Below, in pieces: positions 8,800 to 32,400 of a stretch of 40,729 bases of DNA. A model generated the notes under the pieces. It made no database searches, was not told where the DNA came from, and saw nothing but the letters and a program-made list of their open reading frames with translations. The translations under genes were made by a program, and so were the position numbers. Origin of the DNA: a virus; the IMG/VR virus record IMGVR_UViG_3300017969_003508, positions 1 to 40,729 of that record; one strand, 5' to 3'. How positions within the stretch are numbered: position 1 is the stretch's first letter; the number at the start of each line of letters is the position of its first letter.

Positions 8800-9708
8800 T
8801 TATGATCCAAGTGCTATTGAGTAGACAATTGATGTTTTATCTACATATCCTTTGTTTGTTATATTTACTCTAGTAGCAGGTTCTTGACTAACTTCGCCAC
8901 TAGTCATTTTTACTGTTGAAGGAGATGTGCCTCCAATGGGTGTGCTGTCTATTGTGCTCGATGTAATTGCACTATTGTTTATAGGAATACTTAACCCAGT
9001 CTCATCTATTTTACCTAAAAGAATATTCTCTATTTTTAACACTATTCGATTTGCAGCATTAAACTCTAGATTAGTTGTAGCATTAAAACTACTTACGCCT
9101 AATCCGTTTACATCTACTCCTTTAGTGGTTGTGTATCCTCCGACACTTAAATTTTTTCCAATGCTTGCTCCGCCTCTAGCAATAAATGCTCCTGTTCCTA
9201 CGCCAGTTGAGTCAGTAAGTGCAGTACTTTCTAAAGTTCCAAATTTACCAGGAGAATCTAAAATTTCAAATTCGCCCATTATACTACCGTCTACATTTCC
9301 ATAGTATAGTGTATCGGGAGCATTGATAGGTACAGACCATTGTAATTGTCCATCATCTCTACCTTGAGCTGCTGCACCAACTGTGCCGTCAGAATGAACA
9401 ATGCCTTCGTTGTATAATGTTATCCCAGGATTATCGCTATAAATTTTAAGTACATGATTATTGAGATCTAAATTGAATGTATATCTCAAATTTCTGTACA
9501 AAGTAATCTTTGGATTTTCTCCTGTCTCTCCAGAAAATATAAACCCTGTAGTGCTGTCGTTTATTGTATAATCACTGACGCCGCCAGTGCCGCCTCCGGC
9601 ACCTGCTGCTTGAATAGATAAGGCAATAATATTTCCGTTTGCATCTACACTGAATCCAGGGCTCTTAAAGCCAAACTCAGATTCAAAAGGATTATTTGTT
9701 ACTGGCAT
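8800..9708 (-). CDS. Virion fibre protein with degenerate cupredoxin-like domain
   Basis: 302 residues. Residues about 45-150 resemble the cupredoxin-like domain of the 1467-residue fibre (TLYRNLRYTFNLD here, ELNLRRGLTYVFNLD there, then a GE/G strand ending). The histidine in NNHVLKIYS is kept, but the C-x2-H-x2-M copper loop is replaced by YYGNVDGSIMG, so metal binding is probably lost. The C-terminal half (GTLESTALTDSTGVGTGAF, GGASIGKNLSVGGYTTT) is a typical fibre shaft, ending with VNITNKGYVDK like the 324-residue fibre (MPNKKYVDDAI). It has a GGAG ribosome site and a late promoter 17 bases upstream. It is the first gene of a pair with the 2148-residue protein. Confidence 0.7.
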   Translation of the reverse strand: MPVTNNPFESEFGFKSPGFSVDANGNIIALSIQAAGAGGGTGGVSDYTINDSTTGFIFSGETGENPKITLYRNLRYTFNLDLNNHVLKIYSDNPGITLYNEGIVHSDGTVGAAAQGRDDGQLQWSVPINAPDTLYYGNVDGSIMGEFEILDSPGKFGTLESTALTDSTGVGTGAFIARGGASIGKNLSVGGYTTTKGVDVNGLGVSSFNATTNLEFNAANRIVLKIENILLGKIDETGLSIPINNSAITSSTIDSTPIGGTSPSTVKMTSGEVSQEPATRVNITNKGYVDKTSIVYSIALGS

Positions 9709-12218: not shown

Positions 12219-12815
12219 ATGGATAGTGATTTTAAAGAACATATTATGTGGATGGAAGTTCCTGTACACTTCTGGGAATTTTCTATGCACGATAGCCAAG
12301 AGTATACTGTAAATGAATTACACAAAGAAATAGAAAAAATCATTAAAAAAGTAGGCGATGGTCAAAAAAATGCTACAAATGTCAAGGCCATGATGACAAA
12401 ATGGAATATGTTAGAATATAAACCATTTGAACTGATTGCAAAAAAAGCTGCAAAAATTTGCGAAGATTGGCATGCAGAAAAAACAGATTTAGATCTTGTA
12501 ACTTTTATGACTACATGTTGGGGATCTATATATACTAGAGGAAACTACAGCGAAAGGCATGCTCATGTACCTGCTTTATATAGTTGGGTATACTACGTTA
12601 AAGTCGATGATAATTCTGCTCCTATATACTTTCCTAATAATCCAGGATTTTACTATAAACCTACAAGCGGTACGGGAATTATTTTTCCCGGATGGTTAGA
12701 TCATGAAGTTCCGCCGCACGAAAGTGACGATGAACGAATAATTGTTGTTGGTAATATAGAAGGAACAGGTAGTGTCAACTACCCTCAACGTTCCTTCTTA
12801 GATACAAAGAATTAA
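12219..12815 (+). CDS. Second 2OG-Fe(II) oxygenase-like protein
   Basis: 198 residues. The iron-ligand set is again HxH (His114-Ala-His116), with WVYYVKVDD replacing the SGxYYL strand, then GIIFPGWLDHEVPPH with His162 and DERIIVVGNI with Arg173. The double-stranded beta-helix order matches the neighbouring oxygenase, but the two are too diverged to be a recent duplication. AAGGA precedes the ATG by about 8 bases. The stop TAA overlaps the stop of the opposite-strand carbamoyltransferase by 4 bases, with no hairpin terminator in the junction. An enzyme acting on the same glycan or nucleotide as the adjacent sugar genes is one option; iron-dependent modification of a virion or host protein is another. 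Confidence 0.75.
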   Translation: MDSDFKEHIMWMEVPVHFWEFSMHDSQEYTVNELHKEIEKIIKKVGDGQKNATNVKAMMTKWNMLEYKPFELIAKKAAKICEDWHAEKTDLDLVTFMTTCWGSIYTRGNYSERHAHVPALYSWVYYVKVDDNSAPIYFPNNPGFYYKPTSGTGIIFPGWLDHEVPPHESDDERIIVVGNIEGTGSVNYPQRSFLDTKN

Positions 12816-14614
12816 TCATTTTTTATTGTAACTAACTTTCCTAATTCAGGAAGATATAAGTATTCTATTTGACTATTTGCAAGAGTGCGCAAAGCATCAT
12901 CTAAAGTTTCTACTAAAGGTTCACCGCCTAAATTAAAACTTGTATTAAAAATAATAGGACAGCCTGTTACTTTTTTAAATTCTTTAATTAATCTATAGTA
13001 TAAAGGATTTTGTTCTTCGGTAACAGTTTGAATACGACACGTACCATCTACATGAATAATTGACGGAATCTTTTCTTCTACTCCTGGCTTACAATTTACA
13101 GCATACATCATGTAAGGTGTTTCTTCCATGCCTCTTAAATCAAACCAATCGTGTACATCTTCTTTAAGAATACTTCCTGCAAATGGTCTAAAATATTCTC
13201 TACGCTTTACAGTATTAACATGATCTTTTCCGTTAGGATCTGTAGGATCATATAGGATACTCCTGTTACCTAACGCTCTTGGACCAGCTTCTGACTTTCC
13301 TTGGAATAAACTTACAATATTTTTGGACGTAATTAATTCGATGACATCTTCATCCGATGCATTGCTAATTTCTGCATTATATTGTTCAACCAAATTATAT
13401 AATTTGTCGTAGGATGGTTCAAAACCAAGATATATTTTATCTTTTGAGTAATCTACAGGTTCAAACTCATGCTCAAAGTTAGATATTAAGTCGTGCCATA
13501 CTAATAATGCTGCACCAATAGCAGTTCCTGCATCGGAGCTAATTGGTTCTACATATAAATTAATATTTTGCTTATTAAGTTCTTCTAAGTACCAATAGTT
13601 TGCAACACAATTAAGACCATAACCTCCACACAGAACAACATTTTTGTTTCCTGTTCTTTTTACTGCATCGAGTATTAAAGTAAGTGCTTGCTGTTGTGTT
13701 GCTTTTTGCACAGCATATGCAACGTCTCTTCTATTTTGAAGCTTTGTTAAATCATCAGTATCGCGGTTTGATAAAAATTCGTTTAATCCTCTATCAATGT
13801 ATGCACCATTCGGATAAGTAGAATAAATTAAATTTTTATTAGCATAACCTGTATGTTCATCTATAACATTTGGAACTTTAGGATTTTCTTTACCGTATGG
13901 CGCTAACCCCATTGTTTTGCCTGCTTCGATAAAATGCCATCCGCAGTAGTGTGTAGCTGCTTCATAAATTTTTGTTATACCTGCATGTGTACCTAAAACT
14001 GCTTCACAATCTGAATCTTCTTCAAACCATATTGCTGTAGACATTTTATCTGTTTTGTATGTAGGAACTTCGTCATTACCACAAGCATGTTTGTACAACG
14101 TCTCAACTTTATTAGGGTACTCTACATTAAAAATAGTTTCTGTTTCCCAAACTCTTCTAGATTCATCGTCTACTTTTACTTCGAAACCAGATCCTGCGCC
14201 GTCAATAACTACAGCAGTTGCAGTTTCAAATCCACTACGATAAAAAGCACAGGCAGCGTGTAGTTTATGGTGGATACTTCCTAAGTCGATAATTTGTGGG
14301 TGTTGATATTCTCCTGGAGACTGCCAGCTAATTAATCCTAGTTTTCTAGCCATAGAAAAATATATATCTTCCCCTGTATAATCTACTTTAGGAGAAAACT
14401 GTTCTAAAGTTGCAGTATGTGCAATTACAAGATAGTCTAATTTATCCGTATAATCTAAAATTTTTGCCATGCCGCCAAAAGGAGTTCCGTCATATTTTAC
14501 TCTTGAAATCCGTTCTTCTTCTATAGAAAATACTACTTCTCCATTTTTAAGCAAGCATAATGCACCGTTATGGCCGCGTACTAATGCTGCAATCCAAATA
14601 TCTTTTTCTTTCAT
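12812..14614 (-). CDS. NodU/CmcH-family O-carbamoyltransferase
   Basis: 600 residues, the usual length of the family. The N-terminal Kae1-like domain shows GHNGALCLLKNGE with His15, IEEERISRVKYDG and the metal-site stretch IHHKLHAACAFYRSGF followed by VIDGAGSG. The middle has CGGYGLNCVANYWYLEEL. The C-terminal domain has SEAGPRALGNRSILYDP, REYFRPFAGSIL and IIFNTSFNLGGEPLV. All are hallmarks of carbamoyltransferases that move a carbamoyl group from carbamoyl phosphate, via carbamoyl-AMP, to a hydroxyl on a sugar or antibiotic. It is second in a two-gene unit, 3 bases after the GT9 gene, behind a consensus sigma70 promoter. A carbamoylated glycan made early in infection is the natural inference; the acceptor is unknown. 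Confidence 0.92.
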   Translation of the reverse strand: MKEKDIWIAALVRGHNGALCLLKNGEVVFSIEEERISRVKYDGTPFGGMAKILDYTDKLDYLVIAHTATLEQFSPKVDYTGEDIYFSMARKLGLISWQSPGEYQHPQIIDLGSIHHKLHAACAFYRSGFETATAVVIDGAGSGFEVKVDDESRRVWETETIFNVEYPNKVETLYKHACGNDEVPTYKTDKMSTAIWFEEDSDCEAVLGTHAGITKIYEAATHYCGWHFIEAGKTMGLAPYGKENPKVPNVIDEHTGYANKNLIYSTYPNGAYIDRGLNEFLSNRDTDDLTKLQNRRDVAYAVQKATQQQALTLILDAVKRTGNKNVVLCGGYGLNCVANYWYLEELNKQNINLYVEPISSDAGTAIGAALLVWHDLISNFEHEFEPVDYSKDKIYLGFEPSYDKLYNLVEQYNAEISNASDEDVIELITSKNIVSLFQGKSEAGPRALGNRSILYDPTDPNGKDHVNTVKRREYFRPFAGSILKEDVHDWFDLRGMEETPYMMYAVNCKPGVEEKIPSIIHVDGTCRIQTVTEEQNPLYYRLIKEFKKVTGCPIIFNTSFNLGGEPLVETLDDALRTLANSQIEYLYLPELGKLVTIKND

Positions 14615-18176: not shown

Positions 18177-21100
18177 TTATCTTTGTAAAAAGTAATTCAA
18201 AGCTAAAGCAGCTCCATCAATACTTCCTGTAAAATTGACAGGACTGTTAATATTTATAACATTCCCTTCGGTATTAGTAATAGTATTCAACGTAACTTCT
18301 ATTTCACCAGCTGTAATACTATTTACATTCAATGTGGCGCCGCCGCCACCTATCTGACTCTGAATGTAAGTTCTAATTGCTTTTTGTGTTGGTACAATGT
18401 TGTCTGAATTAGCAGCAAATGTACCATCTGTACTAAATTCATTTACAGCAGTATTAGAACTACCAAGTGTAACTGAACCTAGTTGCAATTCTTGTAGACC
18501 CGCTAAGTTAAACGCATCAGCATTCAAACTTGACTTACCAGTTGACTGTTCAACGCTAAACAATTCGCCTACTCTAAAGTTGCCGTCTTGGTCAGTTGAA
18601 GTATAGAATACTCTACCTCCACCAAAATCATTTGTTTCTTTAGTTGGATCCGGAGATACTAAAGGATCTCCAGGATAATTTGTGTTAGCAAAGTTTCCTG
18701 TTCCTATATCTAAGAAATCGTGTCCTGTCAAACGCACTTGTGAGTATCTTAATCTAACTTCTAACGCATCGTTATGCTCAGGAGCAACATTGATTTCTAC
18801 AGTAGGACTTAGCTGTAGTTCTGCTGTATACGGTCCGCTGCCTAACAGTGATAATACATTTACTAGTTTGTAAACTTGACTGTTACCTGCAAATGTTACA
18901 TTTGAACCTTCAATCGGAACTTCATTTAGGCCTGCTACAGCGACAAAGTTACCAGCTTGATAAATGTCTGCGTATCCATCTCCTGTAATTAATGCTGTTG
19001 CACTTTCCCAATCTGCACCTCTATTTGTAAATGTTGGTTGAGCTAGTACCCCATCTCCTACACGCACAGTAAATGTAGAAGCTACTGTATCGTTAGGATC
19101 AGTAATTGTTAGTGTCGGAACACTAGTGTATCCTGAACCAGGCTCTAGTATCTTGTATCCTGATATTTGTCCGTCTGTTGTAACTGTACATCTTACAAAT
19201 GCCTGACCTACGTTTTTCTGATATTGTGCTACAGCAGCAGTAGTATTACCACCTACTGTTACCCAAGTACCTTCAGAGCCTGGTGAACCAAATGCAGTAG
19301 CATTGTGATTGTTTGTAGTGGTTAATGTGCTTGATGTCCAGTTATACCCATCTGTTGATATTGCTGATTCATTAGCACCATTTACAACATGCCACACGCC
19401 TTGACCATAACCAATATTTGTCCATGTACTGCTTAATGGTAGTGTTGATGTATACCATGTTGCGCCATCAAAGCTGTGACTTACTGTATCTGTACCTGTA
19501 GCTACAGCAACATATTTGCTGTTACCAAATGCAACAGATGTGTATGTAAGTGCTGTTGCACTTGTACTACCTATCCAGCCTGTACCGTTGTTTGTACTCA
19601 CTGCTGTATCTGCACCTTCTGACATAACAACGTATCTACCTGCGCCATATACTAGTGCAGAGTAACTGTTACCAATTACAGGTAGTGTTGTAGCTGCAAC
19701 CCACGCTGTGCCGGTATTTGATACAGCAACATTACCTGCTGTACTAATTGCCATAAAGTATTCATCATCTTTGTTATAAGTAATGTCTACCCAATCTGCA
19801 CTTGCTGGTAATGTCATTAGTGTCCATGTTGCGCCATCGTCTGCACTATATGCACCTTGTGTTCCTGTTGCCGCTGGCAATGTTACAAAATAACCTGTGC
19901 CGCCAACTTCACCGTAAGTTATCTTACCTTGTGCTGCTGGAGTTGCGCCGCCTGCATTAAAGATTTGACCTCCTGGTGTCCAGGTGCTTCTGTCTACTGT
20001 TACGACTGTATCTGTATTTGTGTTACTTACCGCAACCCATTTATCATTACCAAAAGCAACATCTGCGTATACATTAGATGTATTGTAAGTGCCCGAAGCT
20101 GGATATGATGCTCCGTTATATGATGGAGCAGCAGGCGCTGCTAACTCAATTCTAGGTTCAACACTATAAGTTGAAGTTTGATCTAGTGTAGCTTCAATTG
20201 GAGTACCAGCTATGATATGATCCCATCCTGGATTACCGTCTGACTCTCTATAAACTTGTGCTACTTTTGTACCCGAACTATATGAATTTATGTATCCGTA
20301 TTGTCCTGCACCTTTACCTGCAATAATCATTATACGCATACCTGTATACGCCGCCGATGGAGCAGTATCTTGTCCTGCAAGAGTAATACTTGTAGTATCA
20401 CCTGTTTGTGGACTGTTTGATGCAAAACGATAATCTGCACCAGTAGTTAACAATCTAACTTCAAATACACCATCATCTCTAATTTCATCAAGTGTTGCAT
20501 CTTCATCGTAACCAATACCACTAAATGATAAAGTGTTGTTTGTAGTTGTGTAGTTGTTACCAGCATTTGAGTATTCTAATGCAAGTAATTCACTTGTATC
20601 TGTATATACATCGGCAACTTGAGCCTCAAATGCTCTGTTATTTACAGTACCAGTGATTGGTACTTCAGTTGAATCAACACCTTCTGCTACACTACCATAA
20701 TCGCCATAAGAGTTGTTACCATTTGTTGCACGTATCTTACCACCTGATTCTGATAAGTATCCAATGTGATTATAATATGTAAACACAGAAACTAATTCTG
20801 AACGTCCTAAGTTTGAAACCCAATATCCAATACCATCACTTAATACCTGTGTAAAGTCATTTGCTACCATTGAGTCATTGCCGCCATTGTGCAATGATCC
20901 ATCAACTTTCATACCTACACACGCTGTACCAAATGTTGATACGTTTTGTACATAAGGTGATTTGGTGTTAATCCAAACTCTTTGATCTGCTGGTCCCCAA
21001 CCTGGATCTAATGATACATATGCACCTGCACTTGGACGTTTAGTACCGTATGAGTTTGCAGAACCTAGTGTACCTGTAAGGCCGTCTAGTGTCATGTTAC

Positions 21101-23885
21101 GTAAGCCAGTACCATTTCTCATATAGAACATGTTTTCTTGGGTACTACCTGTTACTGAATTAACATATAGTTGGCCAGCTGTAAATGATTTATAATTGCC
21201 TGTATAAATTAAGTCGTGTTGTATAGCATCTATATAACGACTTACATCTCTTTCACATTTTGCACTGTTATAACTTAAATCTACTGTCATTGTTCCTGAT
21301 GCAGTAGTTAATGTTAGTGCTGTGCCGCCTCTTGTTTCAGAAACTGTAAATGTTGTTCCGTTTGGTACTGATTCTACATAATATACTGTATCTGCGGTAA
21401 TGCCGCCAAATGTTGTACCACTGAACACAACAGCAGTTCCTACATTTAACCAACTTGTATCTGCGATTGTAATCACGTTACCGGTTGCATTTGTATCTGT
21501 TGCAGTATCAGTATATGTTGCTGCAATGTATGCTGTAGTTTCAGCTATAATAAAGTTTCTATTTAATTCTATACATTCGATAGCGTATGTATAATCTGTA
21601 GTTGTGTTAGGATCATTAGAACCTGTTATAGCCGGTGCAGTAGAATCACCAGTTGCACCATTTAAACCGTAATCTATGTAGTCATGTATTTGTTGAACAA
21701 GATTAGCAGCATCAACACCCGCTGCTGCGCCGCCTGCTGGAGCAGTTGTTACTTGTGTTTCACCGTTTCCAGCTGTTGGAGTTACGGCTGCATTTGTTAC
21801 AATACTATCAATAAAGGTCTCCATATGCAACAACGTTCCCAAGCTATAGTCTACTTCAGATGTATCTACATACGAATCTGCTGGCATTATTCTGGTAGAA
21901 CGCAATTCGTCACCTATTACAGCAGTTTGATGCGGAACAATCAAAGGAGGAACTTCTTTGAATTGTCCTGTTTTTACAAATAAACTGTTAGTTGGGATAC
22001 GTTCTGCTGGAACTTCTCCGTCTGATTGTGCATCGATTGCATTTATTACAATATCTAACAATCCTTCAGCAACACTTTGTGCATCGTTTTCCTCAGTATA
22101 ATTTGTATCAATTACTTGATTAAACGAGCTATAAGTAGTTCCCGGTGCAAGATTAGATAATACAGCATCAATAACTACTTTCATTTGACTTAATGTTTCA
22201 GACAACTGTTCATATTCATCTTGAATCGATGCTATTAACGCTCCGCCTTCAAAATAAGTTAACGTAGCTTCTCTGGTTCTTTCATTGCCGCCGTGTCCTA
22301 AGTCGTAGATAATTGCATCTAAAATTTGTCCCATATCTCTACGACATGTTGCAATATTATCATTTGTAAAACCTGACCAAATACCAGTTCCTGCTGTTAT
22401 TTGAGCGTTAACCCATTCTACTAATTCTTCTTGTATAAAACTTCTATTAACTTTTAACAAGTGTTGTGCATTTGTTCTTAAATGTCCTGCGTCAATTCTT
22501 TCCAGACCGTATCTAACTGTTTTAAAAGGTTTATCAAGTGTATATCCGTAATCTATTTCATCTGTGCCTTTTTCTGCAACATAAAATACATTATTGATAA
22601 TACCAAAGTCTGCCCATACTAAATCAGCATCTTCTACTTTCAGTACTTGTCCATCTTTTCCTATAGGTAGTCTTGTTGCGCCGCCACCTGAGTAGTAAAC
22701 AATATCGCCGTCTGTTGTAAGAACACTAACTTCACTACCGCCTACTAATTGATTCCAAGTTGTACCTGTTAAATCTTGATCTGGTCTATTTTGTACTGTA
22801 ACTTCATCTGAAGTATGGCTATCTACACAGATATATGTAGAATTTAAATACCTAACCATATCACCTAAATCATAGATAGTAGCATCTGCCCAGTTGCCCT
22901 TCCAGTATGCTCCTGAATTTAATCTAGACCAGTAAGTATTATTAGGTGGTCGTTGTCCTGTACCTTCGTGTTCTTCTGTGCATAGATAGGTGTAACCGCC
23001 TAAAGTAACAACATCACCTATACGATAATCTTGGTTTGTTGAGTCTTCGCCCCATTCGCCTCTAAAATTAAATCCTGTTGAAAATACATCCCAGTCGTCT
23101 AAACTTACAGTTGGTTTAGCATCTAGATTATTAGTTTTTGCAACATATTGGTATCCACCAAAAGTAACAATATCTCCAGGCTGGTATCTGTTTCCTTGAT
23201 CCCAACTATCTTCGAATTCTAAACCTTCTACAAATTGTGCCCACTTTGCTTCGTCATCTGTGAGATAAGTTTGACTTGTATGATGAGCAACACATATCCA
23301 AAGTCCGCCACCAAATTTTACAACATCGTTTACTTTGTATCGTATAGCACCTTGCCAATTTCCCTTATATTCAAAGGTTATATTAAATGTATCCCATTTT
23401 AGAGTATCTACTTCTAAACCGTCTGCATTTGTAGCAGCACTTGTATGTGCTGTATTACATCTATAAATACCCGGACCGTATCTAACTAAATCTCCAATTT
23501 TGTATGTTGTAGCTGTTGACCAATCTCCTAACCACTCAATACCTGTAGTTGCGAAAATATCCCATTTTCCTTGATCTAGTTCAAGCGTTGCTTGAGATGT
23601 ATGACCTGTTGTACATATGTAAACAGTAGCTCCATACTTTACTAAATCATTTAGTTGATATTGCGTAGCAGATGCCCAGTCGTCTAACCAACTTAGTCCT
23701 TCAGTAAATAATTCCCATTTCGCAGAATCTAAGTCTAAATTAAAATCTGACTTTGATGTATGTCCTGCTACACAAAGATAAGTTTTTCCGTTGACTTTAA
23801 CAACGTCATCTACATAATATATGGTAGAGGCTGTCCAATCGTTTTTCCAAACAAATCTAATTCTACCTAGTTTAAATTCTGCCAT
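18177..23885 (-). CDS. Giant tail fibre with seven chitin-binding-like repeats and an Asp-box propeller
   Basis: 1902 residues. Residues about 12-390 hold seven repeats of W...Y..GD.V..G..Y.C...HTS......W, the pattern of CBM5/12 (ChtBD3-like) carbohydrate-binding modules. Two modules with CRRD/CERD...DA...D follow. A middle region (LDPGWGP, KSPYVQNVSTFG, SDGIGYWVSNLGRSELVSVF) and a C-terminal region (RLTGHDFLDIGTGNF, FYTSTDQDGNFRVGELF, PTQKAIRTYI) are shared with the 1467-residue neighbour. Residues about 1258-1540 are six to seven copies of a roughly 40-residue unit ending in S-x-[DN]-[GD]-x-x-W, an Asp-box beta-propeller, absent from the paralog. A GGAG site and a late box overlapping the preceding stop control it. 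It is a receptor-contacting fibre; the sugar specificity is unknown. Confidence 0.85.
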   Translation of the reverse strand: MAEFKLGRIRFVWKNDWTASTIYYVDDVVKVNGKTYLCVAGHTSKSDFNLDLDSAKWELFTEGLSWLDDWASATQYQLNDLVKYGATVYICTTGHTSQATLELDQGKWDIFATTGIEWLGDWSTATTYKIGDLVRYGPGIYRCNTAHTSAATNADGLEVDTLKWDTFNITFEYKGNWQGAIRYKVNDVVKFGGGLWICVAHHTSQTYLTDDEAKWAQFVEGLEFEDSWDQGNRYQPGDIVTFGGYQYVAKTNNLDAKPTVSLDDWDVFSTGFNFRGEWGEDSTNQDYRIGDVVTLGGYTYLCTEEHEGTGQRPPNNTYWSRLNSGAYWKGNWADATIYDLGDMVRYLNSTYICVDSHTSDEVTVQNRPDQDLTGTTWNQLVGGSEVSVLTTDGDIVYYSGGGATRLPIGKDGQVLKVEDADLVWADFGIINNVFYVAEKGTDEIDYGYTLDKPFKTVRYGLERIDAGHLRTNAQHLLKVNRSFIQEELVEWVNAQITAGTGIWSGFTNDNIATCRRDMGQILDAIIYDLGHGGNERTREATLTYFEGGALIASIQDEYEQLSETLSQMKVVIDAVLSNLAPGTTYSSFNQVIDTNYTEENDAQSVAEGLLDIVINAIDAQSDGEVPAERIPTNSLFVKTGQFKEVPPLIVPHQTAVIGDELRSTRIMPADSYVDTSEVDYSLGTLLHMETFIDSIVTNAAVTPTAGNGETQVTTAPAGGAAAGVDAANLVQQIHDYIDYGLNGATGDSTAPAITGSNDPNTTTDYTYAIECIELNRNFIIAETTAYIAATYTDTATDTNATGNVITIADTSWLNVGTAVVFSGTTFGGITADTVYYVESVPNGTTFTVSETRGGTALTLTTASGTMTVDLSYNSAKCERDVSRYIDAIQHDLIYTGNYKSFTAGQLYVNSVTGSTQENMFYMRNGTGLRNMTLDGLTGTLGSANSYGTKRPSAGAYVSLDPGWGPADQRVWINTKSPYVQNVSTFGTACVGMKVDGSLHNGGNDSMVANDFTQVLSDGIGYWVSNLGRSELVSVFTYYNHIGYLSESGGKIRATNGNNSYGDYGSVAEGVDSTEVPITGTVNNRAFEAQVADVYTDTSELLALEYSNAGNNYTTTNNTLSFSGIGYDEDATLDEIRDDGVFEVRLLTTGADYRFASNSPQTGDTTSITLAGQDTAPSAAYTGMRIMIIAGKGAGQYGYINSYSSGTKVAQVYRESDGNPGWDHIIAGTPIEATLDQTSTYSVEPRIELAAPAAPSYNGASYPASGTYNTSNVYADVAFGNDKWVAVSNTNTDTVVTVDRSTWTPGGQIFNAGGATPAAQGKITYGEVGGTGYFVTLPAATGTQGAYSADDGATWTLMTLPASADWVDITYNKDDEYFMAISTAGNVAVSNTGTAWVAATTLPVIGNSYSALVYGAGRYVVMSEGADTAVSTNNGTGWIGSTSATALTYTSVAFGNSKYVAVATGTDTVSHSFDGATWYTSTLPLSSTWTNIGYGQGVWHVVNGANESAISTDGYNWTSSTLTTTNNHNATAFGSPGSEGTWVTVGGNTTAAVAQYQKNVGQAFVRCTVTTDGQISGYKILEPGSGYTSVPTLTITDPNDTVASTFTVRVGDGVLAQPTFTNRGADWESATALITGDGYADIYQAGNFVAVAGLNEVPIEGSNVTFAGNSQVYKLVNVLSLLGSGPYTAELQLSPTVEINVAPEHNDALEVRLRYSQVRLTGHDFLDIGTGNFANTNYPGDPLVSPDPTKETNDFGGGRVFYTSTDQDGNFRVGELFSVEQSTGKSSLNADAFNLAGLQELQLGSVTLGSSNTAVNEFSTDGTFAANSDNIVPTQKAIRTYIQSQIGGGGATLNVNSITAGEIEVTLNTITNTEGNVININSPVNFTGSIDGAALALNYFLQR
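19250..20120 (-). repeat. Asp-box beta-propeller repeats inserted in the 1902-residue fibre
   Basis: Units such as AFGNSKYVAVATG...HSFDGATW, GYGQGVWHVVNG...STDGYNW and YSADDGATW recur every roughly 40 residues, about seven times. This is the sialidase-type Asp-box pattern. The block lies between segments that are adjacent in the 1467-residue paralog (after SVEPRIEL and before QAFVRCTV). Confidence 0.75.
22715..23850 (-). repeat. Seven chitin-binding-like modules, fibre 1
   Basis: Seven coding repeats of about 50-55 residues with conserved Trp, Tyr, GD/ND-x-V, a Tyr-x-Cys or similar strand and HTS. The fifth (YQYVAKTNN) lacks the Cys and HTS; the others largely keep them. Confidence 0.75.
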
Positions 23886-23911: not shown

Positions 23912-23920
23912 ATATTTATC
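23912..23920 (-). promoter_or_regulatory. Late promoter-like box
   Basis: The minus strand reads GATAAATAT, 26 bases before the ATG at 23885, and overlaps the TGA of the 1467-residue fibre (23919-23921). GGAGT follows as ribosome site. It likely starts the late unit 23885 to 15616. Confidence 0.65.
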
Positions 23921-26900
23921 AATTACCTAAGAACAATGCTTGTTGTAAGTATGTTCCGCTAACTCCTCCGTTTAGTGCAACGTCTGCGTTAAATTCTATT
24001 CTATTAGCTTCAGTTGAAATACTGCTTCCAGAAATTTCAACCTGTCCTGCTACTACTCCTACTACTTGAAGATTGGCAGATCCGCCGCCAATTCTGGACT
24101 CAATATAGGCCCTAATTGCTTTTTGTGTAGGTACAACTTCATCACTATTTGCACTCAGTGTTGCATCAGTACTAAACTCTCTAACCGTAGCACTAGTACC
24201 CCCTAATCTTACACCACCTAATCGTAGTTCCTCAAGTCCGCCTAATTCAAATGCATCAGCATTAAGTGTAATAATACCTGTTGCCTGCTCTACTTCAAAT
24301 AGTTCACCAACTCTAAAGTTACCATCTTGGTCAGTACTTGTATAGAACACACGACCACCTCCACTATCAACAGCTTCGTATGCTTGTGTTGGTTCATTTG
24401 TAGACGTATAGCCTTCTACATACCTAGTAGGATAATCTGTATCAACAATATTACCTGAGCCGATGTCTAAGAAATCATGTCCTGTTAGTCTTACTTGACT
24501 ATAACTTTCTCGTATTGTTATTGATGCTAAATGCTCAGGTGCTGTAATAGCATCTAACAAAGGACTGATTGTTAAACTTGCTGATTGGTTGCCTAGTGAA
24601 CCAACTACATTATCAACTGCAACTAGTCTATAAATTGTTGAATCTCCAGCAAGTTCTACGTTAGCGCCTGGACCAGGTAAGTTAGTCATACCCGTAACAT
24701 GCAACCCAGAACCTGTTTGGTATATATCAGCATAACCGTCGCCTGATACTGTTGCTATAGCAGATACAAACCCTGTTCCTCTGTCATTCCATGTAGGTTG
24801 GCCTAATACTCCGTCTCCGACTCTAACTTCCCAAGATCCACTTGCAGTTCTATTAGGATCGGTAATTAAAATGCTAGGCGGTGAACCTGCTGTATAACCT
24901 GAGCCTGGATCTAAAATTTTAAATTCGCCTAGGCCGCCGCCTGACACAGATAATCTTATAAATGCAGTAGTTCCTGATACAGGATCAGGAATTACTACTC
25001 TTGGTTCTATTTGATATCTAGATGTGCTATCAGGTATCTCTAATGTACGTCCAGGAACAACATGATCCCAACCATAAACTCCGTCAGATTCTCTAGCAAT
25101 AATCATATCTTTTGTAGCAATATCATAAGATGTAATATAACCATATTGTCCTGCACCTGCACCTGCAATAATCATTATACGCATACCTAAATAATTGTCT
25201 ATAGTGTTTGCATCTGCTTGTGATATTTTTATATTCCCATCTGTATCTACAGGACCGTCTTGTGCGTTACCTTGCACAGTTAAATACCCTGCACCTAAAG
25301 GATTTTCGCCTGTACCTGTGAGACGTACTTCGTAGATGCCTCCGTTATTTACATTTGCAGAAGCTATGGACGCCCCTGTGCCTGTACCCGTAATGGCAAA
25401 TGAAGCAGTAGTGTACGCACTTCCTGCATTTGAATATTCAAACACTAATATATCGTCAAATCCATCTGTGAACACAGTGGAAATTTGCGCATCAGTGCTT
25501 CTGTTATTCACTTCAGCAGTAATTGCTGTTTCTGTAGTATCTACACCCTCGGCGACACTACCATATCTTCCATAGGAGTTATTACCGTTGGTTCCTCGAA
25601 TTTTACCACCATTTTCAGCTAGGTATCCAATATGGTTATAGTATGTAAATACTGATACAAGTTCAGATCTAGCTCTATTTGTACACCATACCCCTATACC
25701 ATCACTTAATACCTGTGTAAAGTCGTTTGCAACAACAGAGTCGTAACCTCCGTTATGAAGATCGCCATCAATTTTAAGTCCAGTAACACCGTTACCAAAT
25801 GTAGAAACATTTTGCACATACGGAGATTTGTATATCCATACAGTTTCATCATCTGGTCCGGTCCCTGGATCTAAGCTTACATATGCTGCGTCTAGAGTAG
25901 GTCTTCTAGTTAGATACGCATTTGCTGTGCCTAAAATATCTGATAAACCTTGTAGGCTCATATTTCTAATTCCACAACCACTATTTACGTAAAACATTTT
26001 AGCAGATTCATAACCTGTTGCAGGTGTTACAATAGTGCTCCTCAATTCGTCACCTATCAAAGCACAATTGCGTGGTAACGATATTGGCAGTATTTCTTCA
26101 TAATATCCTGTTTTTACAAATATAGAAGTGTTAGGGTAAGACGTATATATTGGATAGATATTTCCTGCGTCTGTATGAGTTACATATTCACCTACAAAAT
26201 CATTAAAGTTTGCTTCTATATAATCTATAACATCTTTTATAGCATCATTTTGTGCTTTAGTATTGACACTTCCTGTCTGTGATTCATATCTTAAAAAATA
26301 TGCAGAATCAGCAACTGTAATAGATCCATTTTGATCAATATCTCCGTATGCAAAATTAGTGTTCGGATTTATTGATTGTAGCAGTGTTTCTAAATTAGGC
26401 GCATTAACTAATGACCCTGCACTGTCTAATTCTAATATTGCTGCGGTTAATACGTATGTATCTTGATTGCCTGCTGTTGTATCGTACGGAACTCTATTAA
26501 ACATAAAATCTGCTTCATTTGCTCTTATATGATCTGCGGCATATTTTATTGTTCTAAAAGGAGATTGCAAACTTTTGCCGTTTTCAGGTAAGTCTACACC
26601 GTCCTGTGAAACGTAATATACTTTTGAAACAACATCAGCACTAGTCCACTCCAGTGCATTGCCTGTAGATGATAAAATTTCGCCTTGTGCACCTCTAGCA
26701 AATCGTGTCTTATTAAGATTTGTTGGATCATTAGCATATGTAATTAAATCTCCTCGAGTTGTAAGTACGTTTGTAGGGAAACCTTCGGCATATAGTTCAT
26801 AGTAAATTCCGCCTGCAAGTAAATCTAGATCTGGACGTTTATCTGCTGTTCCTAAATGAGGACGTATAACTTTGTGTGTATTAGACCCATAGGTAACTAA

Positions 26901-28322
26901 GTCATTAAGTTTATATTCTTGGTTTTCTACCCATTGCCCTGTCCAATATGTATGAGGCACTACTACTTTCCAATGTATATCGCTAGGGGGTTCTATATTT
27001 TCTACATTTTGTATAGCAGTATACAGTATACCATTATGTCTAATAGTGTCACCAACATTATATGATGTCGAACTATCATAATTATAGTCTTCTCTAAAAT
27101 TGTAAGATTCACTTACTTGTTCCCAAGTAGCACTATCTTCTGCTAACGGTTTAATTCCTTCGTTGTTAACCTTAGCCCTGTATTGGTATCCACCATAAGA
27201 CACTACGTCACCAATTTGGTAATATGTGTTAATTACCCATTGATTTTCTGCTTCTACGCCGTCTAAGTATAGTTCCCAACCGCCAGCAATAAAATCGGTT
27301 TGGAAATCAGTAGCAGTATGGTGTAAAATACATTTCCAAATACTGCCGCCTTCTTTTATTGTATCATTTTCTCTATAAACGGTTCCAGTTTGCCATTCTT
27401 GCAAATATTGTATTGAATCTACATACATATCCCATTTATTAATATCTGCAACGATGCCGACTTCATATGTTGCAGCACTTGTATGTCCGGTGATACATCT
27501 ATAAACTCTACCATTAGATTTTACTAAGTCATTTGCCTTATATCTAGTGCTAGGTAACCAAACACCTTTATATTCAACAAATTTTGCTAATACAATCCAA
27601 GATAATATATCAACTTCTAATCCATTAGCAAATGAAGCTGCGCTGTTGTGTGGATATTGACATTGATATACTATAGGTCCATATTGGACTATATCTCCAA
27701 ATTGGTAGTAAGTTGATACTGCCCAATCACCTCTCCACTTAGTTCCTTGAGCTTGTAACTCCCAAATTGCTGGAGTATCAAGTACTAATTGTTCCCCCAT
27801 ACCGGTATGGTATTGGCAAAAATAATGTAAATTTATACTATCGCTTGCAACTGTAACTCTTACTTCTCTATAAGTTGCAGTATCAAAACCTGAGATATAA
27901 GCAGCCGAAGTTACTTGAGCGTTATCTAAATAGTATTCTACACCGTCTGGATATAAAAATCCACCGTTAACGTGAGTACCATCAGAAGTTGCGCTAATTA
28001 GAAAAGGATGTCCAACATTAGAAGGATCGTCTAAATTAAAAACATAAGTTAGTCCTCTTCTCAAATTTAGTTCAGGATTTTCTTCCCCGTTAACATAATA
28101 TACGTTGGCAGTGTCTTCTAAGTTTCTATCTACTGTAATGTGTAAATTCTGTGTCCAAGATCCATAGTCGGTATAAAATGATGATGCATTTGCTGTATGT
28201 CCTATCAAACATACGTAAGTGCTACCATTATATTCAACAATATCATCCTTAGTGTATTCGGCTGATGGTTGCCAACTATTTTTCCAGTTAAAGCGTATTC
28301 TGTCTAATCTAAAATCTGCCAT
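23919..28322 (-). CDS. Giant tail fibre, paralog of the 1902-residue fibre, with inserted cupredoxin and dockerin-like loop
   Basis: 1467 residues. It has the same N-terminus (MADFRLDRIRFNWKNSW against MAEFKLGRIRFVWKNDW), seven CBM5/12-like modules and the same middle and C-terminal regions as its neighbour, but no Asp-box propeller. The first chitin-binding module is split by residues about 58-183, a cupredoxin domain. Its type-1 copper ligand set is complete: His105 in GHPFLIS, then Cys169, His172 and Met175 in YFCQYHTGM. Near residue 661, GDIDQNGSITVADSAYFLRY matches an EF-hand/dockerin loop. The ending FYTSTDQDGNFRVGELF...PTQKAIRAYI is shared. It is the last gene of the unit beginning at 32400 and is separated from the next small gene by 5 bases. 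Confidence 0.85.
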   Translation of the reverse strand: MADFRLDRIRFNWKNSWQPSAEYTKDDIVEYNGSTYVCLIGHTANASSFYTDYGSWTQNLHITVDRNLEDTANVYYVNGEENPELNLRRGLTYVFNLDDPSNVGHPFLISATSDGTHVNGGFLYPDGVEYYLDNAQVTSAAYISGFDTATYREVRVTVASDSINLHYFCQYHTGMGEQLVLDTPAIWELQAQGTKWRGDWAVSTYYQFGDIVQYGPIVYQCQYPHNSAASFANGLEVDILSWIVLAKFVEYKGVWLPSTRYKANDLVKSNGRVYRCITGHTSAATYEVGIVADINKWDMYVDSIQYLQEWQTGTVYRENDTIKEGGSIWKCILHHTATDFQTDFIAGGWELYLDGVEAENQWVINTYYQIGDVVSYGGYQYRAKVNNEGIKPLAEDSATWEQVSESYNFREDYNYDSSTSYNVGDTIRHNGILYTAIQNVENIEPPSDIHWKVVVPHTYWTGQWVENQEYKLNDLVTYGSNTHKVIRPHLGTADKRPDLDLLAGGIYYELYAEGFPTNVLTTRGDLITYANDPTNLNKTRFARGAQGEILSSTGNALEWTSADVVSKVYYVSQDGVDLPENGKSLQSPFRTIKYAADHIRANEADFMFNRVPYDTTAGNQDTYVLTAAILELDSAGSLVNAPNLETLLQSINPNTNFAYGDIDQNGSITVADSAYFLRYESQTGSVNTKAQNDAIKDVIDYIEANFNDFVGEYVTHTDAGNIYPIYTSYPNTSIFVKTGYYEEILPISLPRNCALIGDELRSTIVTPATGYESAKMFYVNSGCGIRNMSLQGLSDILGTANAYLTRRPTLDAAYVSLDPGTGPDDETVWIYKSPYVQNVSTFGNGVTGLKIDGDLHNGGYDSVVANDFTQVLSDGIGVWCTNRARSELVSVFTYYNHIGYLAENGGKIRGTNGNNSYGRYGSVAEGVDTTETAITAEVNNRSTDAQISTVFTDGFDDILVFEYSNAGSAYTTASFAITGTGTGASIASANVNNGGIYEVRLTGTGENPLGAGYLTVQGNAQDGPVDTDGNIKISQADANTIDNYLGMRIMIIAGAGAGQYGYITSYDIATKDMIIARESDGVYGWDHVVPGRTLEIPDSTSRYQIEPRVVIPDPVSGTTAFIRLSVSGGGLGEFKILDPGSGYTAGSPPSILITDPNRTASGSWEVRVGDGVLGQPTWNDRGTGFVSAIATVSGDGYADIYQTGSGLHVTGMTNLPGPGANVELAGDSTIYRLVAVDNVVGSLGNQSASLTISPLLDAITAPEHLASITIRESYSQVRLTGHDFLDIGSGNIVDTDYPTRYVEGYTSTNEPTQAYEAVDSGGGRVFYTSTDQDGNFRVGELFEVEQATGIITLNADAFELGGLEELRLGGVRLGGTSATVREFSTDATLSANSDEVVPTQKAIRAYIESRIGGGSANLQVVGVVAGQVEISGSSISTEANRIEFNADVALNGGVSGTYLQQALFLGN
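26286..26342 (-). other. Dockerin/EF-hand-like calcium-loop motif in the 1467-residue fibre
   Basis: Encodes DIDQNGSITVADSAYFLRY, with Asp/Asp/Asn/Asp at loop positions 1, 3, 5 and 12, Gly at 6 and Ile at 8. This is a better match to a calcium loop than the copy at 4555. It lies between the chitin-binding region and the fibre body. Confidence 0.6.
26785..28290 (-). repeat. Seven chitin-binding-like modules, fibre 2 (first one split)
   Basis: Modules follow W...Y..GD.V..G..Y.C...HTS...W. The first begins WKNSWQPSAEY and resumes after the cupredoxin with AIWELQ. The later modules correspond one for one with those of the 1902-residue fibre. Confidence 0.7.
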
Positions 28323-29043: not shown

Positions 29044-32000
29044 TTATCCTAATGTTAACACGTACTCGATTGCAAGATCTTCTGCTGCTGCAAAACTAAT
29101 TGATCCTGTTGCACCTGCAACTGAAACCCAGCTTACACCGTCAAATATTTCCAAGTATCTTTGTTCGGTGTTGAATCTTGTCATTCCTGTTTCTCTATAA
29201 GCAGCAGCTGGCCTTTGTACATTTGTTCCTACAGGAACAACAAATCCAGAAGTGCCTTCTATTTTAAAATAACCACTACCTGCTTGTTGGAACAGTAATG
29301 GTGTATCAGCTAAAGTATTAGTTATTGTACTATCCTTAATAGCTATATTGTCTATTGAAACTGCGCCTGTTCCGTTCGCACTAAGCACTAAATCAGTGTC
29401 CACAGTTTCTGTAGTAATAACATTGCCATCTATACTTATGTCATCAACTTCAATTCTTGGTGTTTCTAATTTCGCATCAGTTACACTTAATCTTTCTGCG
29501 CCAGCAATGTAAAATCTTATAGTATTATCATTTGCACCAGGAGTAGCTTCAGCAGTAATTTTTGTATCTAGGTCTAAATCATACACACCATTAAGTGCAA
29601 TCCAATTACCGTCATACCCTTCAAACAAATTGTTATCTGTATTATAACGAATCATGCCTGTTGCAGGCGTTGGTCTACTTGCTGTGTCGCCAGATGGGAG
29701 TTGTAAACTACCAGTTGAAGTAATTTTCACATTGCCACTAGAACTTGAAAGATTTATATCTCCGCTTAAACTTTCAATAGTATTGCCACTTATGCGTAAA
29801 TTACCTGTGTCAATTCTTTGACCTGTAATTGTAGTTGTGTCGCCTCCAGTAGTGATTGTTAAACCATCTGTAGTATCAATATTGAATTCTGTACTTGTAA
29901 AATCTACAGTGCCGTCTGCTTGATTTACATAAAATAAATCGCCAACTCTAAAGTCACCTTTGTGGTCAACTGAACTGTATCTTACTTTTGCATTATTAAG
30001 TTCTGTAACTTCATTTGCTTGTACTACATTATTTGGATCATTATCTGAATCTTTGCCTAGACCTATGTACGCAAAGTTTTGGCTTATAAGATACATTAAT
30101 ACGCCACTGCCGTCGCCATAAGCACCATAGTTTCCGTAAATTACTGCTGATGCTATAGATCTAATTTCACCTCCGAAATCAGTTTTATCTGCAAGCGTAC
30201 AGAATGAAGCCGTAGCGCCTCCACTAAATCTTAAATCTTGTGAATTTACACCATCGTCTACTATTACATTAGAACTATCGTCACCGTCAAAATGTAGAAG
30301 TAAACCGGTATTAATATCACTTGTAAATGCACTCAATGGTGCAACAAAGTTTGCTGAATATCTAGCAACTTCTTTTGAAATTCTTAATTCGTCTGCATAT
30401 CCTTCAAAGTAATTTGCAGAGCCATCGTACTTTGCTCCTACTGTGACAGGTTTCGCAGAACCATAATCTGTGCTGTCAGTCCAAGTGCTTCCTACTTGTG
30501 TGCCGTTTAAAAATAGTTTTGTATCACTACCACTTCTTGCTACAGCCACATGGTTCCATGCATTTAGAGTCATAGCTGAAGCACTTTGTATTTGTGTTGC
30601 ACCAGATACAAAAACATATGGCTGATTACTTGCATCTACAAATAGAGCAACAGCATCATCTGTATCTGCTCCGGCTCTCATGTCTATAAGTATTCTATCA
30701 CCTACACTAGTTGTTGGATAAAACCAGCCTTCAACTGTCCAATCAAAAGTACTAAAGCCAAAATCATTATTTGACACGGTGCCTATGTAATCATCGTCAC
30801 CGTCTAAAAATAAACTAGCAGTTCCAAATTTTTTCTCAGAAACTTCTAAACTTGCATTATTATAACTAGTAACAGTTTTACCATTTCTTTCTGTAGCTGG
30901 TTCAAGTGCACTTAGATTAGAAGAAACATAAAATTTTCCATCTGCATCTTTACTATCAATAGTACCAGTACCGAGTACAGTAACACCATCTGTGTCGTAG
31001 TATGTAAATGTTTCTCCAGCGTTAAATGATCCGCTAAGTCCATCGACTCTAACTGCTGTTGTACCTGTACCTTTAAGTCCTGTTGCTCCGTCAACTGCGT
31101 ACAATCCTCTGTTGGCAAAATATGTAAAGCAATTTAACCACTCTACTCTAGTACCGTTTGTAATTGTAAGAGCATCTACTCCTGGAGTAATAAAAGTTAC
31201 AGAGTGGAATAAGCAACCTGCTTCTCTTGATGCAGAGTTTGCTACACTGCCGTCTAAGTATGCGCCGCCGCCAGCATCGCCTTCATCAAAACCTCTTGGA
31301 TCTGCACCACTTGTAACTGAGCCTTGTGTAATTACTGTTACGTTTCTTACGTACGGTGAACGAGATGTAACATTAAAATTAGGAGCAAACTTGAATGCAT
31401 AACCTGGAGCATAAAAGTTTCTTATTGTAACATCTTCAATTGTACATTGGCCGTTTAACAAAAAAGCATCATTATTTTGTGTGCCTACTGTTGGTTCAAT
31501 ATTTACGCTTCGTAAACTGTGTCCTTTGACTGTAACGCCTGCAGGCACTGTCATCGGAAATACTTCTTGATACACTCCTGGGTATATGTGTATTGTGTCG
31601 CCGTCAGTTGCTTGTGATAGTGCATATGTTAAACTACCAAAAGGATCATTAGGATGATCACCTGAATATGTATCGTCGCCGTTTTCAGCAACATAATACA
31701 AATTACCTTGTCTTAGAGCAAGATCTACGCCAGACACCGTGATACTAGATGCGGTAATTGTTCCTGCATAAAATGTTTGTGTCCAAATATCGGCCCATTG
31801 TTTGCCGCCTGTACTTGGATCTGATCCTAGCGCATATGTATTATCTGCATCTGGTATAATATCTGATGCTAATTCTGCATTAAATGTTACATTATCAGTG
31901 TCAGCATCGCCGATTGTAATATTACCATCAGCTGTAATAGAACCTGTTGCTGTAATGTTACCGTATACATTTGTATCGCCAAAAATCTCAACAGTGCCTG

Positions 32001-32400
32001 TGCCGTTCGGATTAAGTTCAATATTTGCGTTAGAAGTAGTTGTTCTAATCTCGTTGTTTTCTAGTTCGAGATCGTCAATTTGTAGCTTTTGTTGATACAC
32101 AACTGAATTATTAGCAGTTGTGCCTAGTATCATTGTAGGTTGGGTTGTTGCTATTCCTGTGCCATCAATTACAATGTCACCTAATTCAGATCTGCTAGAA
32201 ACACTTAGATTAGTAGTTCTTGTTGTTCCGTTTACATCTAGCTCATGTTGAGGTGTAGTGGTTTTAATGCCAACCTTATGATTAGCTGGATCAGCATCTG
32301 ATAATTCCAAATATAGAAGGTCGTTCTCAAAAGCAAGATTCACACCTTCACGTAGAAGGTTTTGCTTTAAGAGCGGACCCGATATGCGACCAATAGCCAT
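29044..32400 (-). CDS. Pectate-lyase-fold tail fibre with inserted LamG lectin domain
   Basis: 1118 residues. The N-terminus (MAIGRISGPLLKQNLLREGV) and a fibre region lead to YVAENGDDTYSGDHPNDPFG and IHIYPGVYQEVFPMTVPAGV, the signature of right-handed beta-helix (pectin-lyase-like, DUF1565-type) proteins. Between GATGLKG and GEIRSIAS lies an extra part of about 290 residues absent from the 825-residue paralog. It is a LamG/concanavalin-like domain with FGTASLFLDGDDDYIG, FTVEGWF-like (WTVEGWFYP), AWNHVAVARSG and GYADELRISK. The C-terminal shaft has two RPTPATGMIRYNT-like modules. A GAGGAG site precedes the ATG and a long GC-richer leader with a late box precedes that. It heads a four-gene late unit. 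Likely a side or receptor-binding fibre with an added lectin. Confidence 0.83.
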   Translation of the reverse strand: MAIGRISGPLLKQNLLREGVNLAFENDLLYLELSDADPANHKVGIKTTTPQHELDVNGTTRTTNLSVSSRSELGDIVIDGTGIATTQPTMILGTTANNSVVYQQKLQIDDLELENNEIRTTTSNANIELNPNGTGTVEIFGDTNVYGNITATGSITADGNITIGDADTDNVTFNAELASDIIPDADNTYALGSDPSTGGKQWADIWTQTFYAGTITASSITVSGVDLALRQGNLYYVAENGDDTYSGDHPNDPFGSLTYALSQATDGDTIHIYPGVYQEVFPMTVPAGVTVKGHSLRSVNIEPTVGTQNNDAFLLNGQCTIEDVTIRNFYAPGYAFKFAPNFNVTSRSPYVRNVTVITQGSVTSGADPRGFDEGDAGGGAYLDGSVANSASREAGCLFHSVTFITPGVDALTITNGTRVEWLNCFTYFANRGLYAVDGATGLKGTGTTAVRVDGLSGSFNAGETFTYYDTDGVTVLGTGTIDSKDADGKFYVSSNLSALEPATERNGKTVTSYNNASLEVSEKKFGTASLFLDGDDDYIGTVSNNDFGFSTFDWTVEGWFYPTTSVGDRILIDMRAGADTDDAVALFVDASNQPYVFVSGATQIQSASAMTLNAWNHVAVARSGSDTKLFLNGTQVGSTWTDSTDYGSAKPVTVGAKYDGSANYFEGYADELRISKEVARYSANFVAPLSAFTSDINTGLLLHFDGDDSSNVIVDDGVNSQDLRFSGGATASFCTLADKTDFGGEIRSIASAVIYGNYGAYGDGSGVLMYLISQNFAYIGLGKDSDNDPNNVVQANEVTELNNAKVRYSSVDHKGDFRVGDLFYVNQADGTVDFTSTEFNIDTTDGLTITTGGDTTTITGQRIDTGNLRISGNTIESLSGDINLSSSSGNVKITSTGSLQLPSGDTASRPTPATGMIRYNTDNNLFEGYDGNWIALNGVYDLDLDTKITAEATPGANDNTIRFYIAGAERLSVTDAKLETPRIEVDDISIDGNVITTETVDTDLVLSANGTGAVSIDNIAIKDSTITNTLADTPLLFQQAGSGYFKIEGTSGFVVPVGTNVQRPAAAYRETGMTRFNTEQRYLEIFDGVSWVSVAGATGSISFAAAEDLAIEYVLTLG
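30175..31070 (-). other. Inserted LamG-containing segment
   Basis: Coding segment present in the 1118-residue fibre but missing from its 825-residue paralog, where the flanks are joined by a few residues (GLLGLGGNGTRFGAEVRSIA). The core is a LamG jellyroll. The N-terminal part (GETFTYYDTDGVTVLGTGTI) may be a linker domain. Confidence 0.7.

Follow-up and report, generated by a model that had tools for sequence, protein, structure and literature searches.

The question raised by this locus is whether a viral tail fibre carries a copper-binding domain and, if so, what a copper site could do on a virion. The window, by which we mean the whole stretch of DNA that was analysed, comprises the 40,729 bases of a virus record in IMG/VR, and its minus-strand genes include long fibre and baseplate-type proteins. 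These genes match PHROGs annotated as ‘tail fiber protein’ and ‘baseplate wedge subunit’, with a carbamoyltransferase gene among them, and the gene set resembles the ‘host recognition cluster’ of T4-like pelagimyophages and cyanomyophages (PMC7029224). The gene of interest encodes a fibre of 1467 amino acids, which matches phrog_9851, a tail fiber protein family (E 5.9e-156), as well as the Pfam family CBM_5_12 in 7 stretches (E 2.2e-41, 140.1 bits for a cut-off of 26.2). The phage that bears it is a marine T4-like phage. Contig L093 is the same virus (99.93% identity across 11,931 bases), and its end falls within the inserted domain described below. Two other genes of the window were noted in passing. 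The carbamoyltransferase gene, Nol-like and lying amid the fibre genes, is found at 12812-14614 on the minus strand (phrog_1601, E 2.4e-163), and a baseplate/fibre protein of 1118 amino acids (29044-32400, minus strand) contains a concanavalin A-like lectin domain (Laminin_G_3, E 1.6e-18).

Predicted fold of the inserted domain

An AlphaFold2 model of the domain was built with 45 homologues from IMG/VR contigs, and reached a pLDDT of 95.0 and a pTM of 0.87. The predicted structure is a Greek-key beta-sandwich of about 8 strands, as in cupredoxins. When compared to the PDB with Foldseek, the model gave 12 matches at E <= 0.001, all of them to rusticyanin or AcoP, followed by cupredoxin domains of nitrite reductases, pseudoazurin, amicyanin, amicyanin-loop variants and plastocyanin. 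Alignment with VIA-align gave a Z score of 9.3 for rusticyanin (2cal, 110 residues, 3.1 A) and of 8.9 for the nitrite reductase of Hyphomicrobium (2dv6, 98 residues).

Searches at the level of sequence gave much less. Pfam returned nothing above cut-off in the inserted stretch of the fibre, and no Pfam or NCBIfam cupredoxin family, Copper-bind (PF00127) for instance, was above cut-off for the domain or for 24 homologues, one of the members reaching E 0.09 to Copper-bind. A PDB sequence search with the single domain had no match. Profile searches of the PDB yielded only insignificant matches, led by copper oxidase and nitrite reductase, so that it is the predicted fold and the pattern of ligands that tie the domain to cupredoxins. 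On these two grounds we concluded that residues 58-183 of the fibre are a predicted cupredoxin domain. The model also matched ‘beta-sandwich proteins’ of marseillevirus- and pithovirus-like giant viruses in BFVD (A0A481YVH3, A0A481Z6J5 and A0A481Z7Q7).

The domain nevertheless differs from its best structural neighbours. Rusticyanin and AcoP, cupredoxins of acidophiles, share with it the fold and the His-Cys-His-Met set, which is that of the copper ligands of rusticyanin, but sequence identity is about 14-19%, and the two are electron carriers that occur free in the periplasm and have longer ligand loops, whereas the phage domain is part of a virion protein. The C-x2-H-x2-M spacing of the phage domain (CTPHPFM) is rather that of amicyanin, which was, like pseudoazurin, among the structural matches; neither of these two, however, is a significant sequence match, and the phage domain has an extra hairpin and helix (residues about 128-148). 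We also considered whether the domain could be a captured host plastocyanin gene. This was rejected, as the domain belongs to a distinct family, occurs in-frame in many virion proteins, and matches no plastocyanin family above cut-off.

The split CBM5/12 repeat and the ligand set

The features of the fibre gene, and of a paralogue in the same genome, are as follows.

23919..28322, minus strand: tail fibre protein of 1467 amino acids, a single open ORF with N-terminal CBM5/12 repeats, then the inserted predicted cupredoxin domain, then the fibre body
28161..28286, minus strand: first part of CBM5/12 repeat 1, residues 13-54 (Pfam, model, alignment with relatives)
27768..28160, minus strand: inserted predicted cupredoxin domain with its linkers, residues about 55-185, core 58-183 (model, fold match, alignment)
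28008..28010, minus strand: His105, first ligand of the predicted type-1 set (codon position, alignments)
27816..27818, minus strand: Cys169, predicted ligand, ending the penultimate strand in the model (codon position, model)
27807..27809, minus strand: His172, predicted ligand (codon position, model)
27798..27800, minus strand: Met175, predicted axial ligand (codon position, model)
27741..27767, minus strand: closing strand of repeat 1 after the insert, residues 186-194, starting IWELQAQGT (strand 187-191 of the model)
18177..23885, minus strand: paralogous fibre of 1902 amino acids, repeat 1 uninterrupted, an empty insertion site (Pfam, alignment)

The best CBM_5_12 stretch found by Pfam covers residues 17-51, and repeat 1 is completed beyond the insert. 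In a model of 250 residues (pLDDT 83.7), repeat 1 consists of strands 12-16, 27-31 and 34-38 and a helix at 49-53, followed by the insert and by the closing strand; repeat 2 has the same order of elements without interruption. The closing segment of repeat 1 aligns with the W-x-L segments that end the uninterrupted repeats of relatives. Such CBM5/12 repeats of marine phage fibres, here the host module of the insert, are continuous in relatives with an empty site: repeat 1 is unbroken in the fibres of four phages (Sf-FS3, P-SSM5, S-CAM1 and Mosig), in which no cupredoxin domain was found by profile search. Insertion into CBM loops is recurrent, having affected repeat 1 in the window fibre and in L013, and the same loop of repeat 2 in L022 and L040. 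We concluded that the cupredoxin domain is a mobile module placed in a tolerated loop of the CBM5/12 repeat.

Within the domain, His105 lies just before a strand, Cys169 ends strand 108-112 of the model, and His172 and Met175 sit in the loop ahead of the last strand (119-125, model numbering). The residues thus follow the type-1 order, H105 and then C169-x2-H172-x2-M175, at the strands expected for such a site. Type-1 copper proteins have this arrangement, here with amicyanin-like spacing, and the window domain holds a complete predicted set of type-1 copper ligands. The original prediction, made from the sequence, had proposed a cupredoxin domain splitting the first chitin-binding-like repeat of the fibre, with these four residues in cupredoxin order. 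The structure prediction and the PDB fold matches agree with the domain assignment, the codons of the open ORF with the ligand positions, and Pfam, the strands of the model, the uninterrupted relatives and the paralogue with the split. As for the boundaries, residues 58-183 hold as the core, but the insertion is slightly wider, best placed at about 55-185. That the four residues form a chance pattern was rejected, since the fold match and their co-conservation in homologues argue against it.

Conservation and distribution of the site

To be of use as evidence, the ligands have to be scored in homologues that were not chosen for having them. The columns H, C, H and M are invariant in alignment A6, which was set aside because its members had been selected for the site. 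The test set was instead made of loci fetched with a DNA pattern holding none of the ligands, together with the phage records and the window, and formed 38 clusters at 60% identity. The full HCHM set was present in 21 clusters, 12 had no ligand at all, and 5 were mixed (HCHQ, HCHK, HSTM, HNGM and YCYY). Clusters of the all-or-none type were therefore 33 out of 38, compared to a mean of 6.5 and a maximum of 15 in 5000 independent column shuffles; the clusters are not independent, most of the empty ones representing one orthologous gp7-like position. In the 26 clusters that have one ligand or more, the positions H105, C169, M175 and H172 were within the six best conserved. In two of the mixed cases the His2Cys core was intact and only the axial ligand varied: L089 and L044 have HCHQ, with a Gln as in stellacyanin-type sites, and L056 has HCHK.

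In a tree computed with the ligands masked, full sites were spread across deep branches, and the empty state required at least four changes. The window domain grouped with L013 (HCHM, support 97/87) and then with L018, in which all four ligands are lost (95/88). Whole-site losses with retention of the domain were seen in the gp7-like second domain, and in L018 and L020, at the equivalent place in a related fibre. A test for joint loss on the tree offered only 3-6 independent pairs, none of them opposite, and fell short of significance (p 0.06-0.25).

A partial loss is found in the window itself:

8800..9708, minus strand: protein of 302 amino acids with a remote copy of the domain at residues about 46-152, aligned ligands H-N-G-M (E 7.1e-5)

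This protein matches phrog_677 (E 3.1e-7), a family common to it and to the fibre domain. It had been claimed that this copy has lost Cys and His, and the aligned ligands, in which the Cys and the second His are missing, bear this out.

The near all-or-none state of the four ligands across diverged clusters makes their retention look selected. A reasonable reading of these sequence comparisons is that the full site is old, that selection probably keeps it in most lineages, and that some discard it whole. The prediction that the ligands would be found conserved in homologues, and were kept by selection, is therefore upheld as regards retention as a set in most lineages, but has to be qualified, since in several lineages the fold was kept although the whole site disappeared. 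From these repeated losses with the domain staying, it follows that some uses of the fold do without metal.

The losses bring up an alternative, namely that the domain is a metal-free structural module, a stable beta-sandwich acting as spacer or binder, whose ligands are inherited leftovers that slowly vanish. The persistence of the domain after whole-site loss, as in the gp7-like second domain and in L018 and L020, the loss of 2 of the 4 ligands in the 302-residue protein, and the fact that known apo-cupredoxins keep their fold (apo-pseudoazurin, 1pzc, was among the structural matches) all speak in this direction. Leftovers should however decay singly, and the clusters were mostly either full or empty; the four ligand positions are moreover among the best conserved in site-bearing copies. 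We consider this alternative unlikely. Because apo-cupredoxins fold and empty copies persist, the metal is also unlikely to be needed for the fold alone.

At E <= 1e-3, 296 phage records contained relatives of the domain, most of these records being of Synechococcus and Prochlorococcus phages, and the relatives sit in gp7-like, gp9-like and fibre proteins; several cyanophage genomes have up to four domain matches each. A single-sequence search of IMG/VR with the domain gave no match, and relatives in that collection were obtained with an alignment-based pattern. The canonical form is present in at least 596 confirmed IMG/VR loci, and also in fibres of Pelagibacter and Methylophilales phages. 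Among virion tail proteins, homologous domains are modules of gp7, gp9 and fibre proteins of cyanophages (PHROGs 708, 677, 27200, 30742 and 6005), which are filed as baseplate, fibre, structural or unknown; many second copies are site-less, and no copper or cupredoxin annotation was present in the records examined. Far from being peculiar to the window fibre, the domain is a widespread building block of tails and baseplates in marine phages. In the gp7-like protein of phage S-H35 (L005:812-4957), cupredoxin-like copies were observed adjacent to a YHYH domain or within it (Pfam PF14240, E 1.1e-16, two stretches), a domain predicted to bind metal (PMC7824862); the first copy is HCHM and the second has lost all ligands. 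A full site is likewise present in the gp9-like protein of S-H35.

Cellular genome contigs contributed 41 loci, in which all 42 copies keep the ligand pattern, in a scan biased toward full sites because its single pattern includes the Cys. Host assignment of these loci is uncertain, as many of the contigs stem from single-cell assemblies or metagenome bins. Some of the proteins resemble fibres of prophages, as in Pelagibacter, where a T7 fibre N-terminal domain is also present. Others resemble cell-surface proteins of marine bacteria and archaea: proteins of Candidatus Actinomarina with an N-terminal hydrophobic segment and Thr-rich linkers or stalks, a lipoprotein-like protein with collagen repeats from a euryarchaeon, and Prochlorococcus proteins fused to DUF4214. 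Surface-type proteins with a full site include L203:3353-4264, L198 and L206 from Actinomarina, and L212 and L214 from Prochlorococcus. No match to the domain was found in the plasmid collection searched.

Possible roles of a copper site on the virion

The explanation we favour, and hold to be probable, is that a secreted-type cupredoxin module in the fibre would bind and display one copper ion, and may thereby offer a loop face, fixed by the metal, for docking. The secreted-type domain has entered the loop ahead of the last strand of repeat 1. Loading with a single copper ion would occur during lysis or once the virion is outside the cell, and the fibre would then display the bound copper. 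Less certainly, the metal might fix the exposed face of the ligand loop as a docking surface for a virion protein or a component of the host surface, while copies without a site would act as plain beta-sandwich spacers or binders. For the role of such a domain, the original prediction had named fibre stabilisation, redox sensing or binding of a host metal protein as possibilities.

A different role for fibre copper would be that of a ‘Trojan horse’, recognised by a copper-acquisition system or a cuproprotein receptor of the host, in the manner of the iron HxH fibres. The domain does reside in fibres with carbohydrate-binding repeats, and the analogous iron hypothesis has been put forward for marine phages, cyanophages included (PMC11705849). 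Those ‘Ferrojan horse’ fibres resemble the present case in that a metal is proposed on marine phage tail fibres (PMC11705849), but the fold, the ligands and the metal are others, the iron sites being paired histidines as in T4 gp37. Many copies of the cupredoxin domain are in baseplate wedge-type proteins rather than at receptor-binding tips, and no host copper receptor has been linked to it. The window copy, for its part, is near the N-terminus of the fibre, and in T4-like fibres the N-terminus is usually the virion-proximal end. Recognition of copper by the host thus appears improbable.

The copies in baseplates suggest yet another role. In T4, triggering takes place in baseplate proteins such as gp7 and gp9, and several copies of the domain are in gp7- and gp9-like proteins; the ligand set, with its axial variants, is that of electron-transfer cupredoxins. 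Cycling between Cu(I) and Cu(II) at the host surface could then alter the fibre or baseplate, and aid the triggering of adsorption or contraction. Such a redox switch has no known partner, however, and site-less copies persist in the same baseplate proteins, which leaves it a very slim chance. We give as little credit to a site holding zinc, iron or nickel that would solely rigidify the loop: sites made of Cys, His and Met can bind other metals in vitro, and HCHK and HCHQ variants occur, but type-1 copper proteins have, as a standard, His2-Cys-Met in this order and in this fold, and the structural neighbours are copper proteins.

Returning to a displayed copper ion used for docking, virions may carry copper more generally if the predicted sites are loaded, since the domain occurs widely among the tail and baseplate proteins that ocean phages encode. 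A T4 virion has multiple copies of both gp9 and gp7; by extrapolation, if cyanophages follow T4 and have full sites in both proteins, a particle could hold tens of copper ions. The stronger proposal, that marine phage virions are cuproprotein particles with many type-1 sites in their fibres and baseplates, loaded at lysis or outside the cell and serving attachment or the triggering of infection, is a speculation that we regard as rather doubtful. Should the site bind copper, common ocean phages would carry a redox metal in their infection apparatus, with a bearing on attachment, on the stability of virions in light and oxygen, and on copper binding in seawater. As the domains of this widespread and unnamed family are small enough for expression, direct tests with cultured cyanophages are possible.

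Type-1 cupredoxins are well known, and databases already list the phage proteins concerned as baseplate, fibre or structural proteins. We found no family model or paper in which the module is identified as a cupredoxin or connected with copper. A literature search covering few subscription journals found no paper joining cupredoxins or type-1 copper with phage fibres, virions, baseplates or structural proteins of cyanophages.

Two minor observations concern dockerin-like calcium-loop motifs in the window, both on the minus strand and both under the Pfam cut-off. One, GDIDQNGSITVADS..., is in the 1467-residue fibre (26280-26348; Dockerin_1, E 0.16), and the other, GDFNGSGSVTADDK..., in a structural protein of 2148 amino acids (4537-4623; Dockerin_1, E 0.01).
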